The notes under the pieces were generated by a model. It was not told where the DNA came from. It saw nothing but the letters and a program-made list of their open reading frames with translations, and did no database searches. Source: Gammaproteobacteria bacterium (GTDB taxonomy: Bacteria; Pseudomonadota; Gammaproteobacteria; CAMYNG01). Taken from it: a stretch of DNA of 36,927 nucleotides. This document shows, one piece after another, positions 12,673-19,623 of the stretch (its first letter is position 1; every line of letters starts with the position of its first letter). The position numbers and the translations under genes were made by a program. Location: the NCBI GenBank assembly GCA_011051615.1, contig DRKU01000123.1, positions 1-36,927 of the forward strand. Direction: 5' to 3'.

Positions 12673-13245
12673 ATGGACCCCATCGCCCTGCACCATGCCG
12701 ATCCCCGTACGGTGGTGGCCAGCCGGCCCACTGCCGAGGACCGCCATACCTCGGCGGAGCCGCGTGTGGCGCGCGCGGGCCGGGGAGAGCGCAGCGAGGA
12801 GACGGGTCGCGAGGACGAAACGAGCCTGCGACGCCTGCGTGCGCGAGATCGGGAGGTGCGCGCGCATGAAAATGCCCATCGGGCCGTGGGCGGGCGCTTC
12901 GTGCGCGGCGGCCACCTGGATACCCAACGGGGCCCCGATGGCCGTCTCTACGCCATCGGTGGCGACGTGCGTATCGACGTGGCGCCCATCCCCGGTGATG
13001 CCGCTGCCACGCTGGAGAAGGCCGTCATCGTGCAACGTGCCGCGCTCGCACCCGTCGATCCTTCTCCCCAGGACCGCAACGTGGCCTCGCGCGCCGCACG
13101 CATGGCAGCCAGTGCCCGCGCCGAACTGGCGCGCCAGCGCCACGAGGGGGAAGAGAACGCCCCTCCTGCGCGTGCCACTGGGGCGGGGCTCTACGCCAGC
13201 CTCGCCAGCGAACCGGAACCCCAGGCCATCGACCTGGTGGTGTGA
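12673..13245 (+). CDS. SprA-related family protein, putative metalloprotease
   Basis: This 190-residue protein starts at ATG 12673. It contains an HExxH-type zinc motif in VRAHENAHRAVGG (residues 63-73). This is followed by GPDGRLYAIGGDVRIDVAPI, PGDAAATLEKAVIVQRAALAP and PSPQDRNVASRAARMAASAR, the hallmark blocks of the SprA-related (putative metalloprotease catalytic) family. The N-terminus is charged, low in complexity and lacks an obvious signal peptide. Function is unestablished. The family tends to be small and soluble and no substrate is known here. It lies alone on the plus strand between an NlpC/P60 gene and lemA. Confidence 0.75.
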   Translation: MDPIALHHADPRTVVASRPTAEDRHTSAEPRVARAGRGERSEETGREDETSLRRLRARDREVRAHENAHRAVGGRFVRGGHLDTQRGPDGRLYAIGGDVRIDVAPIPGDAAATLEKAVIVQRAALAPVDPSPQDRNVASRAARMAASARAELARQRHEGEENAPPARATGAGLYASLASEPEPQAIDLVV

Positions 13246-14083: not shown

Positions 14084-16471
14084 ATGGCGCGTAAAGTTAC
14101 CCGCAAGACACGCCGCAAGGCACCTCGCCAGCAATCCACCCGTCGCCGCAAGTCCACGTCGCGCCGTCGCGCGCCACGGCGCAATGATGCCTGGTACCGG
14201 TGCGTGCCATGGAAGAAGGTCCTTGCCGGCCTGGCGGTGCTTGTCGTGCTCTATGTGGGTTACCTCGACTACCGCGTCCGCAGCCAGTTCGAGGGAAAGC
14301 GCTGGGCGCTGCCGGCCCATGTCTATGCGCGGCCACTGGAACTGCGCGAGGACCTGGCCCTGCCGGCCGATCGTTTCGAGCGTGAACTGGCGTTGCTGGG
14401 ATACCGGCTGGCCTATGACACCCGCGAGCCGGGTACCTACAATCGCCAGAACCGGCGCTTTCGTCTGCACACCCGTGGCTTCGAGTTCTGGGATGACACC
14501 GAGCCCGCGCGCCAGGTGGAGATCCGCTTCTACAATGGTCGCGTGGACGCGCTTACCGACGTGGACGCACAGCGTGCCCTGTCGCTGTTGCGCCTTGACC
14601 CCATGTTTATCGGCGGCATCTATCCCGATCAGCACGAGGACCGCCTTCTCATCCGCCTCGACGAGGCGCCGGCGGTACTGGTGCGGGGACTGGTGGCGGT
14701 GGAAGATCGGCGTTTCTACGAACACTGGGGCGTCAATCCGCGCGCCATTGCCCGCGCCCTGTGGGCCAACATCCGCGCCGGTGCCACCGTGCAGGGTGGC
14801 AGTACGCTGACCCAGCAACTGGCGAAGAACTTCTTTCTCAGCAATGCGCGCACCCTGTGGCGCAAGGGCAACGAGGCGATCATGGCCCTGTTGCTGGAGT
14901 TGCACTACAGCAAGGACGAGATCCTCGAGGCCTATCTCAACGAAGTCTCTCTCGGTCAGCAGGGCCAGCGCGCCATTCATGGTTTCGGGCTGGCGGCGCA
15001 TTTCTACTTCGATCGGCCGCTGGCACAACTGGACAATGCGGAACTGGCGACGCTCGTCGCGCTGGTGCAGGGACCGGGACTCTATGATCCGCGCCGTCAT
15101 CCGCAACGCCTGAAGAAGCGCCGCGACCTGGTGCTGGAGATCTTCGCCGCGCAAGGTGTGATCAGCCCTGCCGAGGCGCGCGAGGCCATGGCGCAGGATC
15201 TTACCGTGGTGAAGCGCCCGTCGCGCGGCATCACACCATACCCGGCCTTCATGGACATGGTGCGGCGCCAGTTGCGCGAGAGTTATCGCAAGAGCGATCT
15301 GACCAGCGAGGGCCTGCGTATCTTCACCACCCTCGATCCGCTGGTCCAGAGTGACGTGGAGGACGCCCTGCGCGCGCAGGTCAAGCGCCTCGACCGCGCA
15401 CGTGGACTGGGCGGCAAGCTGGAAGGTGCGGCACTGGTGACCAGCACCACCGGCGGTGAACTGCTGGCCATGGTGGGGGGCCGCCAGGTGCGCTTCGCCG
15501 GATTCAATCGCGCGCTGGACGCCCGTCGCCAGGTGGGTTCGCTGGTCAAGCCGGCGGTCTATCTCACCGCCCTCATGGAGCGTCCCGGCACCACCCTGGT
15601 CAGCCCGGTGAGCGATACGCCGATCCGTATTCAGGGTCCCAACGGCGATGTGTGGTCGCCGAAAAATTACAACGATGAATCCCACGGCGTGGTGCCGCTG
15701 TACGTGGCCCTGACCCGCTCCTACAATCAGGCCACGGTGCGCCTTGGCATGCAGGTGGGCGTGGATCGCGTGGTGGCCATGTTGCGGCGCCTCGGGCTGG
15801 AACGCGATGTGCCGGCCTATCCCGCGCTGCTGCTTGGCAGCCAGACCCTGACGCCGCTGGAAGTCACACGGATCTACCAGACCCTCGCCGCCGAGGGGTT
15901 TCGCAGCCCGCTGACGGCCATCCGCGAGGTGCTCACCGCCGACGGTGAACCCCTGCAACGCTACCCACTGGACGTGGAACCGGCGGTGGATCCCCTGCAT
16001 GTGCAGATCATCAACAGTGCACTGCGTGAGGTCATGCGCCACGGCACCGGCCGCAATGCGGTAAAATGGTTTCCCGCCGCGCCGGGCTTTGCCGGCAAGA
16101 CCGGGACCACCAACGACCTGCGTGACAGCTGGTTCGCCGGCTTCGGGCAGGAACACCTGATGGTGGTATGGCTCGGCAGTGACGACAACCGTTCCACCGG
16201 CCTCACCGGTGCCAGCGGTGCACTGGCGGTATGGAGTGATGCCATGGCACGTATGGCCAGCCGGCCGCTGGCGCCACTGGCCGATGACCAACTGGTGTTG
16301 CGCTGGGTGGAGCCGGTCAGCGGTCGGCGCGTCGGCGCCTCCTGTCCCGAGGCGGCGCAGCTGGCCTTTCTGCCCGGTACTGAGCCGCAGGAAGCGGGGC
16401 AATGCCCCTCGCAGGAAGACGCCGACTGGAGCGAACGCGCCATGGACTGGTTGCGCCGCTTGCTCGAATGA
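14084..16471 (+). CDS. mrcB: Bifunctional penicillin-binding protein 1B
   Basis: The 795-residue class A PBP polymerises lipid II and cross-links peptidoglycan at the inner membrane. A very basic cytoplasmic tail (about 1-36, Arg/Lys repeats) precedes one membrane helix (about 47-62). A UB2H domain follows (WALPAHVYARPLELREDL), which separates PBP1B from PBP1A. The GT51 glycosyltransferase has EDRRFYEHWG (E207), GGSTLTQQLAKN and the KGNEAIMALLLE block. The transpeptidase has SLVK (active-site S486), SYN and KTGTTN (K672). The length is near the E. coli enzyme. A TPR lipoprotein gene starts 28 bases downstream and probably encodes its activator. Confidence 0.95.
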   Translation: MARKVTRKTRRKAPRQQSTRRRKSTSRRRAPRRNDAWYRCVPWKKVLAGLAVLVVLYVGYLDYRVRSQFEGKRWALPAHVYARPLELREDLALPADRFERELALLGYRLAYDTREPGTYNRQNRRFRLHTRGFEFWDDTEPARQVEIRFYNGRVDALTDVDAQRALSLLRLDPMFIGGIYPDQHEDRLLIRLDEAPAVLVRGLVAVEDRRFYEHWGVNPRAIARALWANIRAGATVQGGSTLTQQLAKNFFLSNARTLWRKGNEAIMALLLELHYSKDEILEAYLNEVSLGQQGQRAIHGFGLAAHFYFDRPLAQLDNAELATLVALVQGPGLYDPRRHPQRLKKRRDLVLEIFAAQGVISPAEAREAMAQDLTVVKRPSRGITPYPAFMDMVRRQLRESYRKSDLTSEGLRIFTTLDPLVQSDVEDALRAQVKRLDRARGLGGKLEGAALVTSTTGGELLAMVGGRQVRFAGFNRALDARRQVGSLVKPAVYLTALMERPGTTLVSPVSDTPIRIQGPNGDVWSPKNYNDESHGVVPLYVALTRSYNQATVRLGMQVGVDRVVAMLRRLGLERDVPAYPALLLGSQTLTPLEVTRIYQTLAAEGFRSPLTAIREVLTADGEPLQRYPLDVEPAVDPLHVQIINSALREVMRHGTGRNAVKWFPAAPGFAGKTGTTNDLRDSWFAGFGQEHLMVVWLGSDDNRSTGLTGASGALAVWSDAMARMASRPLAPLADDQLVLRWVEPVSGRRVGASCPEAAQLAFLPGTEPQEAGQCPSQEDADWSERAMDWLRRLLE

Positions 16472-16499
16472 GGTGTGAATTCGCTTGATGAGGAACCCC

Positions 16500-16976
16500 A
16501 TGTTGTCACGCACTGTGTCCATTGCCCCGGTCCTGCTGGTGGTCCTGGCCCTGCTGTCGGGTTGCGTCACCAGTCCTTCCCGCGATGGTTTCGAGCCCGG
16601 TGGCGAGCCATCCGGTGGCGCGGTCATCGCACCGCGGCGCGGAACCAGCGCCGCGGTGCTGGACCTGCTCGAACGCGCCCGCGCCGCCTCCCGGCGAGGC
16701 GAGTTGCACAAGGCCGAGGCCCTGCTGGAGCGCGCCATTCGTATCGAACCCCGCAATCCCGTACTGTGGCATTACATGGCCAAGGTCCATCTGCACCGCG
16801 GCCGTGCTCAGCGCGCCGCCGGGCTTGCCGCGCGCTCCAACAGCCTCGCCGGTGCGGATCGCGCCCTGCGCGCCGACAACTGGCGCATCATCGCCCACGC
16901 CCGCCAGGCCATGGGTGACGCCGCGGGGGCCCGCGAGGCCCAGGCCCGCGCCAGCGCCCTGGGTGGCGAGCGCTGA
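16500..16976 (+). CDS. TPR lipoprotein, LpoP-like candidate activator of PBP1B
   Basis: The product is 158 residues. ATG 16500 is preferred over ATG 16488 because GAGGAA sits just before it. The signal peptide ends in LLSGC (C22), and the residue after the cysteine is not Asp, consistent with outer-membrane delivery. A short disordered spacer is followed by tetratricopeptide-like helices (VLDLLERARAASRRGELHKA, AIRIEPRNPVLWHYMAKVH, QAMGDAAGAREAQ). In Pseudomonas the activator of PBP1b, LpoP, is a TPR lipoprotein encoded beside ponB. The same position and architecture here, 28 bases after mrcB, make this a strong candidate. The assignment rests on context and domain type, not on a demonstrated match. 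Confidence 0.8.
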   Translation: MLSRTVSIAPVLLVVLALLSGCVTSPSRDGFEPGGEPSGGAVIAPRRGTSAAVLDLLERARAASRRGELHKAEALLERAIRIEPRNPVLWHYMAKVHLHRGRAQRAAGLAARSNSLAGADRALRADNWRIIAHARQAMGDAAGAREAQARASALGGER

Positions 16977-17093: not shown

Positions 17094-17603
17094 GTGAGCC
17101 TGCTCGATGTCGAGAAGCTCATGGCCGAGGCGCGCCGCCTGGCCGCCGAGTACCGGCGTACCACCGGGCAGTCGCTGGGCATTTCCGGCCAGATCGCCAA
17201 GCACGATGCCTGTCGCCTGCTGGACCTGGAAGCGCCGGAAAATCCCCCCGGTGGGTACGACGCGGTGGGGCGCCACGGTCATCGCGAGGGTCAGCGTTTC
17301 CAGATCAAGGGTCGCGTGATCTTCGACGACAGCAAGGGGGGCCAGCGACTCGGTCAGCTCAAGACCAACCAGGACTGGGACATGCTGGTGCTGGTGTTGA
17401 TGGATGAAAATTTTGAACCCTTCGAGATCTACGAGGCCAGCCGCGAAGAAGTGGAAGACGAACTGGACGCCGGTGCCAGCGTCGCGCGCAAGAAACGGGG
17501 CGCCATGTCGGTGGCGCGCTTTCGCAAGTTCGCCCGTCGCGTGTGGGATCGCGAAGCCGGTCTCCTCGACAGCGACCAGTGGGAAAACCGTGCGGGAGGC
17601 TGA
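17094..17603 (+). CDS. Unrecognised soluble protein, possible PD-(D/E)xK nuclease fold
   Basis: This 169-residue protein starts at GTG 17094 with GGGAG upstream. There is no signal peptide. The N-terminal helix (LLDVEKLMAEARRLAAEY) is followed by a core reading GYDAVG, then RFQIKGRVIF, then DWDMLVLVLMDENFEPFEIYE. The spacing of an acidic residue, a QxK pair and a hydrophobic strand resembles the restriction-endonuclease-like fold, and such proteins may bind or cleave DNA. The C-terminus is basic (ARKKRGAMSVARFRKFARR). The resemblance is pattern-based only. The gene precedes the yoaA helicase gene by 58 bases and may be co-transcribed with it. Confidence 0.7.
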   Translation: MSLLDVEKLMAEARRLAAEYRRTTGQSLGISGQIAKHDACRLLDLEAPENPPGGYDAVGRHGHREGQRFQIKGRVIFDDSKGGQRLGQLKTNQDWDMLVLVLMDENFEPFEIYEASREEVEDELDAGASVARKKRGAMSVARFRKFARRVWDREAGLLDSDQWENRAGG

Positions 17604-17661: not shown

Positions 17662-19623
17662 ATGCCTTCGCCTTCCCCTGCACCTTCCGCAGTACTCGGT
17701 CCCGACGGGCCGCTGGCCCGTGCCATCGATGGTTTCGCGCCACGGGCCCAGCAACAGGCCATGGCCGAGGAAGTGCTGGCCACCATCGAGCGTCGGGATG
17801 TACTGGTGGCCGAGGCCGGTACCGGCACGGGCAAGACCTTCGCCTACCTGGTGCCGGCGATCCTCTCCGGACGTAAGATCATCCTCTCCACCGGCACACG
17901 CAACCTGCAGGACCAGCTCTACCATCGCGACCTGCCGGCGGTGCGCAAGGCCCTGGGTCGGCCGGTGGAGATCGCTCTGCTCAAGGGTCGCGCCAACTAC
18001 CTGTGCCGACACCGCCTCGATCTGGCGGTCAGTGACGGCCGCTATCGCTCTCGCGGCGAGGCCGACAAGGTCATGCGTATCCGCGACTGGCAGGGTGTTA
18101 CCACCATGGGCGACATCGCCGAGTGCGTGGCGGTGCCGGAAAATGATCCGGTATGGCCGCTGGTGACCTCCACCGCGGACAACTGCGCCGGGCAGGAGTG
18201 CAGTTACTACGACAATTGCTACCTGACCCAGGCACGGCGTGCGGCGCAGGCGGCCGATATCGTGGTCATCAACCATTATCTGCTGTTTGCCGACATGGCC
18301 CTGCGTGACGAGGGCTTCGGTGAACTGCTGCCGGCGGCGGATGCCTTTGTCATCGACGAAGCGCATCAGATCCCCGAGGTGGCTTCGGCCTTCTTCGGTC
18401 TGGCGGTGAGCTCCAACCAGTTGCTGGAGCTGGCCGCGGATGCGCTGACTGAATATCTGCGTGATATCAACGAGGATGCCGCCTTCGCCGGTTATTGCGA
18501 ACGTCTGAAAAAGGCCGCACAGGATCTGCGCATGGTCTTCGGCAAGATGCAGCGTCGCGGCGCCTGGCAGGAGCTCGATGCCAACCGCAACTTCGCGCCC
18601 CTGAAAGAAAATCTGCTCGATGCCCTGCGCAAGCTGCATGCCGTACTTCGGCCACTGGCCGAGCGCAGCAAGGGACTGGCCCAGTGCGCCACGCGTGCCG
18701 CCGAGCTGGAGGCACGCTACATTCAGCTGTTCGATCCCGCGCCCGATGGTTTCATCCACTGGTTCGACGTCCACCGCCGCTCGGTGTCATTTCACCTCAC
18801 CCCCATGAATATCGCCGAGCCCTTCCGCGCGCAGATGGAGGAACTGGGCGGTGCCTGGATCTTCACCTCGGCAACCCTGACGGTGGATCACAGCTTCCGG
18901 CATTTCAACGATCGCCTGGGGCTGGATGATCCACGTTGCGAAAGCTGGGAGAGTCCGTTCGATTTTGCTCACCAGGCCCTGCTGTTTCTGCCGCGCATCG
19001 GGGTCGAACCCAATGCATCGAGTTACACCAGTGAAGTGATCCACGTCGCCCGTCAGCTCATCGAACTGGCACAGGGCAGCACCTTCCTGCTGTTTACCAG
19101 TCATCGCGCCCTCAAGGAGGCCGCCGCCGAACTGGTGGGCGGACCGTACCCCATACTGGTGCAGGGCGAGGCGCCGCGCGACGTACTGCTGGCTCGCTTC
19201 CGGGAACACGGTCATGCCGTTCTGCTCGGCACCAGCAGTTTCTGGGAAGGCGTCGACGTGCGAGGTGATGCGCTTACCTGCGTGCTCATCGATCGCCTGC
19301 CGTTCGCCTCCCCGGGTGACCCGGTGTTGCAGGCGCGTATCGAGGCCATGCGCCGCGCCGGGGGCAACCCGTTCATGGACTACCAGTTGCCCAGTGCCGT
19401 GATCACGCTCAAGCAGGGTACCGGCCGCCTGATCCGCGATGTCACCGACTATGGCGTGCTGGCCCTGTGCGACCCGCGCCTGCGCAGCAAGGCCTACGGG
19501 CGCATCTTTCTCGACAGCCTGCCCCCCATGCCACGCACCGACGATATCGCCAGGGTGGGCGAGTTCCTGCGCCTCAATCGCGCTCCCGAGCGTGACGACG
19601 ATGCGGCCTCGCTCAGTGCCTGA
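17662..19623 (+). CDS. yoaA: XPD/DinG-family DNA helicase YoaA
   Basis: The 653-residue superfamily 2 helicase unwinds DNA 5' to 3' and carries a [4Fe-4S] cluster. Walker A is AEAGTGTGKT (K58). The probable cluster cysteines are C115 (NYLCRHR), C175, C180 and C186 (NCAGQEC, YDNC). The DEAH box is VIDEAH (D232-H235). Helicase C motifs include LLFTSHRAL, GTSSFWEGVDV and QGTGRLIRD. The length and the adjacent tsaB match the E. coli yoaA-tsaB pair, which separates it from DinG. YoaA is linked to tolerance of replication-blocking damage, together with the Pol III chi subunit. ATG 17662 is the only good start near the family N-terminus. Confidence 0.9.
   Translation: MPSPSPAPSAVLGPDGPLARAIDGFAPRAQQQAMAEEVLATIERRDVLVAEAGTGTGKTFAYLVPAILSGRKIILSTGTRNLQDQLYHRDLPAVRKALGRPVEIALLKGRANYLCRHRLDLAVSDGRYRSRGEADKVMRIRDWQGVTTMGDIAECVAVPENDPVWPLVTSTADNCAGQECSYYDNCYLTQARRAAQAADIVVINHYLLFADMALRDEGFGELLPAADAFVIDEAHQIPEVASAFFGLAVSSNQLLELAADALTEYLRDINEDAAFAGYCERLKKAAQDLRMVFGKMQRRGAWQELDANRNFAPLKENLLDALRKLHAVLRPLAERSKGLAQCATRAAELEARYIQLFDPAPDGFIHWFDVHRRSVSFHLTPMNIAEPFRAQMEELGGAWIFTSATLTVDHSFRHFNDRLGLDDPRCESWESPFDFAHQALLFLPRIGVEPNASSYTSEVIHVARQLIELAQGSTFLLFTSHRALKEAAAELVGGPYPILVQGEAPRDVLLARFREHGHAVLLGTSSFWEGVDVRGDALTCVLIDRLPFASPGDPVLQARIEAMRRAGGNPFMDYQLPSAVITLKQGTGRLIRDVTDYGVLALCDPRLRSKAYGRIFLDSLPPMPRTDDIARVGEFLRLNRAPERDDDAASLSA

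Follow-up and report, generated by a model that had tools for sequence, protein, structure and literature searches.

Does the short gene that directly follows mrcB in this gammaproteobacterial contig encode an activator of the neighbouring PBP1B, or a TPR lipoprotein of some other kind? Within the window, by which we mean the whole stretch of 36,927 nucleotides that was analysed, the gene at 16500-16976 is a real gene and an orthologue of Pseudomonas aeruginosa LpoP. Sequence, fold, reciprocal search and gene neighbourhood all give good support to its LpoP-type identity, from which we infer interaction with PBP1B and its activation. We assign a probability of about 0.9 to the reading that lpoP encodes an LpoP-type activator of the adjacent PBP1B. 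The features on which the argument draws are as follows.

14084..16471, + strand: mrcB, encoding PBP1B, 795 aa (NCBIfam TIGR02071, PBP_1b, 848.2 bits against a cut-off of 717.75)
14345..14596, + strand: UB2H domain of PBP1B, residues 88-171, the expected docking site of LpoP (PF14814, 81.7 bits)
16490..16494, + strand: GAGGA, probable ribosome-binding site of lpoP, read from the sequence
16500..16976, + strand: lpoP, encoding an LpoP-type lipoprotein, 158 aa (match to 6W5Q, fold comparison and reciprocal search)
16500..16565, + strand: signal peptide and lipobox LLSGC with Cys22 (sequence; Cys invariant in alignments)
16566..16652, + strand: tether, 29 residues (profile-based length; pLDDT about 60 for residues 21-40)
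16653..16955, + strand: TPR domain, residues 52-152 in the profile (Pfam, AlphaFold2 and fold comparison)

The mrcB product contains the Transgly, UB2H and Transpeptidase domains of Pfam, and its translation includes SLVK, SYN and KTGT, the usual active-site motifs. Directly downstream on the same strand and separated by 28 bases, lpoP begins with the ATG at 16500, five bases after GAGGA. The lipobox cysteine is invariant in alignments A1 (20 rows) and A3 (53 rows), lipidation being predicted, and the residues between the signal and the TPR region are of low complexity. TPR homology is detected by Pfam through TPR_14 (E 2.3e-6) and TPR_17 (E 3.6e-6). The first-pass annotation had described a lipoprotein reading frame with TPR homology beside mrcB, and this much of the description holds.

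Upstream of mrcB lie a gene for a SprA-related family protein (12673-13245, + strand; PF12118, E 2.2e-31) and, after it, a LemA-family gene (PF04011, E 7.3e-44). Downstream of lpoP, a 169-residue reading frame with no Pfam match at E <= 0.001 (17094-17603, + strand) precedes a helicase gene (17662-19623) with a Helicase_C_2 match, presumably DinG/YoaA-like.

The best natural PDB match of the lipoprotein is P. aeruginosa LpoP (6W5Q), with an E of 6.9e-14 over query residues 48-151; the top row of that search is 9qhb, an engineered repeat protein whose E of 3.4e-15 is the sum of many weak repeats, none passing alone. An AlphaFold2 model built from an alignment of 53 sequences predicts six helices, all within residues 51-155, with high confidence. 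When this predicted model was searched with Foldseek, chains of 6W5Q occupied the first seven rows, and VIA-align superimposed model residues 49-154 on 6W5Q residues 154-259 with Z 20.0, an rmsd of 0.9 and 40% identity over 106/106 residues, the next fold standing 2.3 lower at Z 17.7 and 18% identity. The TPR region, which had been called shorter than that of P. aeruginosa LpoP, is therefore full length, and what is shorter is the tether.

A profile comparison with LpoP had been suggested as a check; the reciprocal search made here gives the same answer. The pseudomonad-type LpoP L097, itself matching 6W5Q at E 2e-52 and also encoded directly after mrcB, was searched against the window's genome, and the single match at E <= 0.001 was lpoP (E 8.9e-17, 44%); conversely, the best match of the LpoP profile in the genome of L097 was L097. 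Together with the neighbourhood, these results bear out the proposed LpoP-type identification, activation being carried over from the orthologues, and provide a firm name for a gene that Pfam and NCBIfam see only as a TPR protein.

Greene et al. (PNAS, 2018) reportedly described an Acinetobacter baylyi pair and its conservation in many Gram-negative species. In A. baumannii, an LpoP homologue encoded beside mrcB, and given that name there, stimulates its PBP1B (PMC7943195), and a relative of lpoP in that species is mentioned in PMC8630537. The proposal that the present gene would extend the LpoP system beyond pseudomonads thus stands as to the presence of LpoP here and falls as to novelty, LpoP outside pseudomonads being already published. 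The two systems are alike in that a gene for a TPR lipoprotein adjoins mrcB, and in the reasoning by which the lipoprotein was recognised, and differ in that stimulation of PBP1B was measured in A. baumannii (PMC7943195), whereas here activity is predicted. The P. aeruginosa protein is alike in being a lipoprotein with a disordered tether, a six-helix TPR domain and a UB2H-containing PBP1B as partner (6W5Q, PMC7267771), to which the present gene product is orthologous with the domain identity of 40% given above.

How regularly the pair occurs was examined in a sample of 187 genomes of the class. UB2H matches at E <= 0.001 were present in 157/187 (128 above the family cut-off), and a UB2H PBP1B was counted at E <= 4.8e-15, which gave 112 genomes; the weaker matches left out, starting at 1.1e-7, were nearly all in frames of about 1150-1260 residues, which we take to be most likely Mfd-type proteins. 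A pair was defined as an LpoP match no more than 4 kb downstream of the UB2H PBP1B and on its strand. By this definition 96/112 genomes, the window's own included, have the pair, and adding G087, in which lpoP directly follows the C-terminus of PBP1B on a contig separate from that of the UB2H match, brings lpoP directly downstream of mrcB to 97/112 among the matches listed. The chance expectation for the pair is about 0.2, a rough figure from about 3 matches per 3 Mb genome, 4 kb and one strand.

Among the matches listed, 11/112 genomes have LpoP elsewhere: G087 is one of them, two (G065 and G153) have fewer than 300 bases of contig upstream of lpoP, and in eight lpoP is apart from mrcB as far as the sequence reaches. 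In five of the 112 (G031, G154, G064, G109 and G124) no LpoP is present among the matches listed, and a rough filter for a lipoprotein gene immediately after mrcB gave nothing convincing, the few lipobox-like matches there overlapping other frames. Six sampled genomes have an LpoP match, among the matches listed, and no UB2H PBP1B. Two or three LpoP-like matches occur in each of G075 (C116, C128), G179 (C37, C19), G055 (C31, C133, C39) and G167 (C4, C19), only one per genome adjoining mrcB; the extra copies are possibly paralogues with other partners.

A second set, the best 80 of 512 confirmed named loci, points the same way. PBP1B is directly upstream of lpoP in 73/80, and in 66 of these 73 its match extends into the UB2H region; of the others, four are too near a contig end, and L213, L255 and L259 have no upstream PBP1B. 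The nearest named relatives in these 80 are metagenome assemblies of Chromatiales and Ectothiorhodospiraceae, together with one titled only Pseudomonadota. In the named relative Thiohalophilus thiocyanatoxydans DSM 16326 (L193), a UB2H-containing PBP1B is encoded upstream and the tether has 31 residues. Gallionella and Nitrosomonadales appear among the record titles of the 73 paired loci, and nine of these loci carry the title Desulfuromonadales, Desulfuromonadaceae, Pelobacter, Deltaproteobacteria or Dethiosulfatarculus; the locus with the last title (L224) comes from a named strain rather than a metagenome assembly. Titles such as Halobacteria (L237) and Phycisphaerales (L239) probably reflect mis-binned contigs. 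At one locus, L159 (G046:C85:1366-3979; also L024), lpoP is intact and the upstream mrcB is broken, with PBP1B matches in three frames, the glycosyltransferase part missing and a UB2H frame of 125 residues, by decay or assembly error.

The lpoP gene would probably share a transcript with mrcB, and its product would be exported, acquire a lipid at Cys22 and be anchored by it in the outer membrane, where the flexible tether of 29 residues would carry the six-helix TPR domain. By analogy with the P. aeruginosa and A. baumannii proteins, this domain would use its conserved junction of helix 2 and helix 3 to dock on UB2H of PBP1B, and docked LpoP would raise glycan polymerisation and crosslinking. 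For the P. aeruginosa pair, NMR shifts on UB2H binding cluster at the meeting point of helix 2 and helix 3, the K_D for UB2H is 0.4 +/- 0.6 uM by BLI and that for whole PBP1B 4.2 uM by SPR, and LpoP makes glycosyl transfer 4.5-fold faster and increases the products of transpeptidation 2-fold, as described in PMC7267771.

In the 96 paired LpoPs of our sample, the corresponding residues 74-92 are conserved above the rest of the domain, with a mean share of the commonest residue of 0.64 against 0.45 elsewhere (p 0.003). Glu77 (0.94), Arg78 (0.95) and Pro84 (0.94) stand out, followed by Trp90 in 90% and Arg81 in 84%. Because P. aeruginosa LpoP shifts at this junction when UB2H binds, its conservation counts in favour of the activator reading, although part of it may reflect TPR packing. 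Among the observations that speak against the activator reading are the Leu that the pseudomonad-type L097 has in place of Trp90 and a tether far shorter than that of the P. aeruginosa protein.

The tether sets this LpoP apart from the P. aeruginosa protein, in which it spans residues 20-146, about 127 residues (PMC7267771), against 29 from Cys22 to the TPR domain here. Tethers were counted in 106 of the 109 proteins with a domain match, leaving out L163 and L166 (no lipobox) and L178 (contig end); ten lipoboxes missed by the pattern were assigned by eye, one of them, L096, having no start codon in the range examined. As lengths were measured to the first domain position of the profile, they hold to within a few residues. 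In these 106 LpoPs the tether ranges from 13 to 228 residues with a median of 44.5, being <= 20 in 8/106, <= 30 in 17/106 (the present protein included) and >= 100 in 9/106, and in the named loci (best 80 of 512) it ranges from 13 to 256. Its composition is dominated by Pro (20%), Ala (14%) and Ser (10%). Very long tethers, of 208-228 residues, occur in L207, L211, L213, L235 (Competibacteraceae), L161 and L172.

At least three homologues, each with a signal-like start, lack the lipid-anchor cysteine and are therefore possibly secreted without lipid. L163 (1872-2333, + strand, in G158) and L166 (1998-2504, - strand, in G037) belong to one family and lie apart from mrcB, and L029 (in G033) follows mrcB directly. 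A limited literature search found no discussion of tether variation in LpoP, which does not establish its absence from print.

Such tethers raise the alternative that this protein is an LpoP-type activator of short reach, acting only where the membranes are close, where the periplasm is narrow, or from the inner membrane, which we regard as unlikely. Besides the 29 residues found here and the still shorter tethers in eight homologues, it draws on the behaviour of PBP1B length, which shows no clear compensation for tether length (Spearman 0.19, p 0.08, n=86); the correlation with the PBP1B tail beyond the alignment is 0.25 (p 0.02, n=86), both values being uncorrected and without control for relatedness. 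It also draws on E. coli LpoB, which continues to activate PBP1B and to support growth when confined to the inner membrane, but fails at high osmolality (PMC9593243). Against it, the residue at +2 after the lipobox cysteine is Asp in 0/106. By the E. coli rule, Asp at +2 leads to inner-membrane retention, which is hence not expected for these LpoPs.

That the gene encodes another TPR lipoprotein, PilW-like or CpoB-like, standing beside mrcB by chance, is very improbable. TPR domains are alike, so that the PilW model of NCBIfam (TIGR02521) reaches E 5.1e-6 and designed TPR proteins match in the PDB search, but the PilW score of 26.2 bits falls far under its cut-off of 154, LpoP outscores the other TPR folds, and the pairing with mrcB recurs in 97/112 genomes among the matches listed. 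A better match to an unrelated TPR lipoprotein family, which had been named as one outcome that would count against LpoP, was not seen among the matches listed, P. aeruginosa LpoP being the top natural match. The CpoB structure 2XEV was not among the 50 matches listed in the Foldseek and VIA-align comparisons. Equally remote is a relic of LpoP, or a structural partner of PBP1B with no activating effect in this organism, for although mrcB is broken next to an intact lpoP in the genome with L159, in the present gene the reading frame is open, the lipobox and the conserved junction residues are retained together with all six helices, and close relatives have the gene too (5/5 further genomes of the same family).

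The preferred reading, an LpoP-type activator of the adjacent PBP1B, leaves room for other activators in the class. E. coli LpoB resembles LpoP in action, being a lipoprotein of the outer membrane and activating PBP1B by way of UB2H, and differs in having an unrelated fold (PF13036; PMC7267771). PF13036 is not among the Pfam families matched by the present LpoP up to E 1, and the LpoB family has 0 matches in the window's genome, an absence that is soft because this genome is only 87.5% complete (5.6% contaminated). The same genome contains an LpoA-family match and other class A PBP candidates.

With LpoB-family matches at E > 1e-10 left out, 46 of 67 genomes remain. A strong match (E < 1e-10) is found in 31 of the 96 genomes first counted with the mrcB-lpoP pair, so that LpoP need not be the sole activator everywhere, and LpoB is present in G124, which has no LpoP among the matches listed. 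In 11 sampled genomes a strong LpoB-family match occurs without a UB2H PBP1B. These 11, and the 31/96 genomes with both activators, contradict the view that LpoP and LpoB strictly exclude each other.

Taken alone, the gene is of modest interest; what is worth following is the variation of the tether and the few homologues that have lost their anchor. What is added here is the frequency of the pair in the class, the Gallionella, Nitrosomonadales and Desulfuromonadales records, and the range of the tether. LpoA and LpoB have been viewed as rulers reaching from the outer membrane, an idea stated in PMC8824477, and a natural series of tethers down to 13 residues, with a few forms lacking the lipid cysteine, bears on that proposal. 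We put forward, as a tentative and still doubtful generalisation, that LpoP is the usual partner of UB2H PBP1B in the class, and also in the Desulfuromonadales-type records, and that a long outer-membrane ruler is not generally needed. If this were true, the ruler or pore-sensing mode proposed for LpoA and LpoB would be the exception, and the length of the tether could be tuned to set the place and time of wall synthesis.
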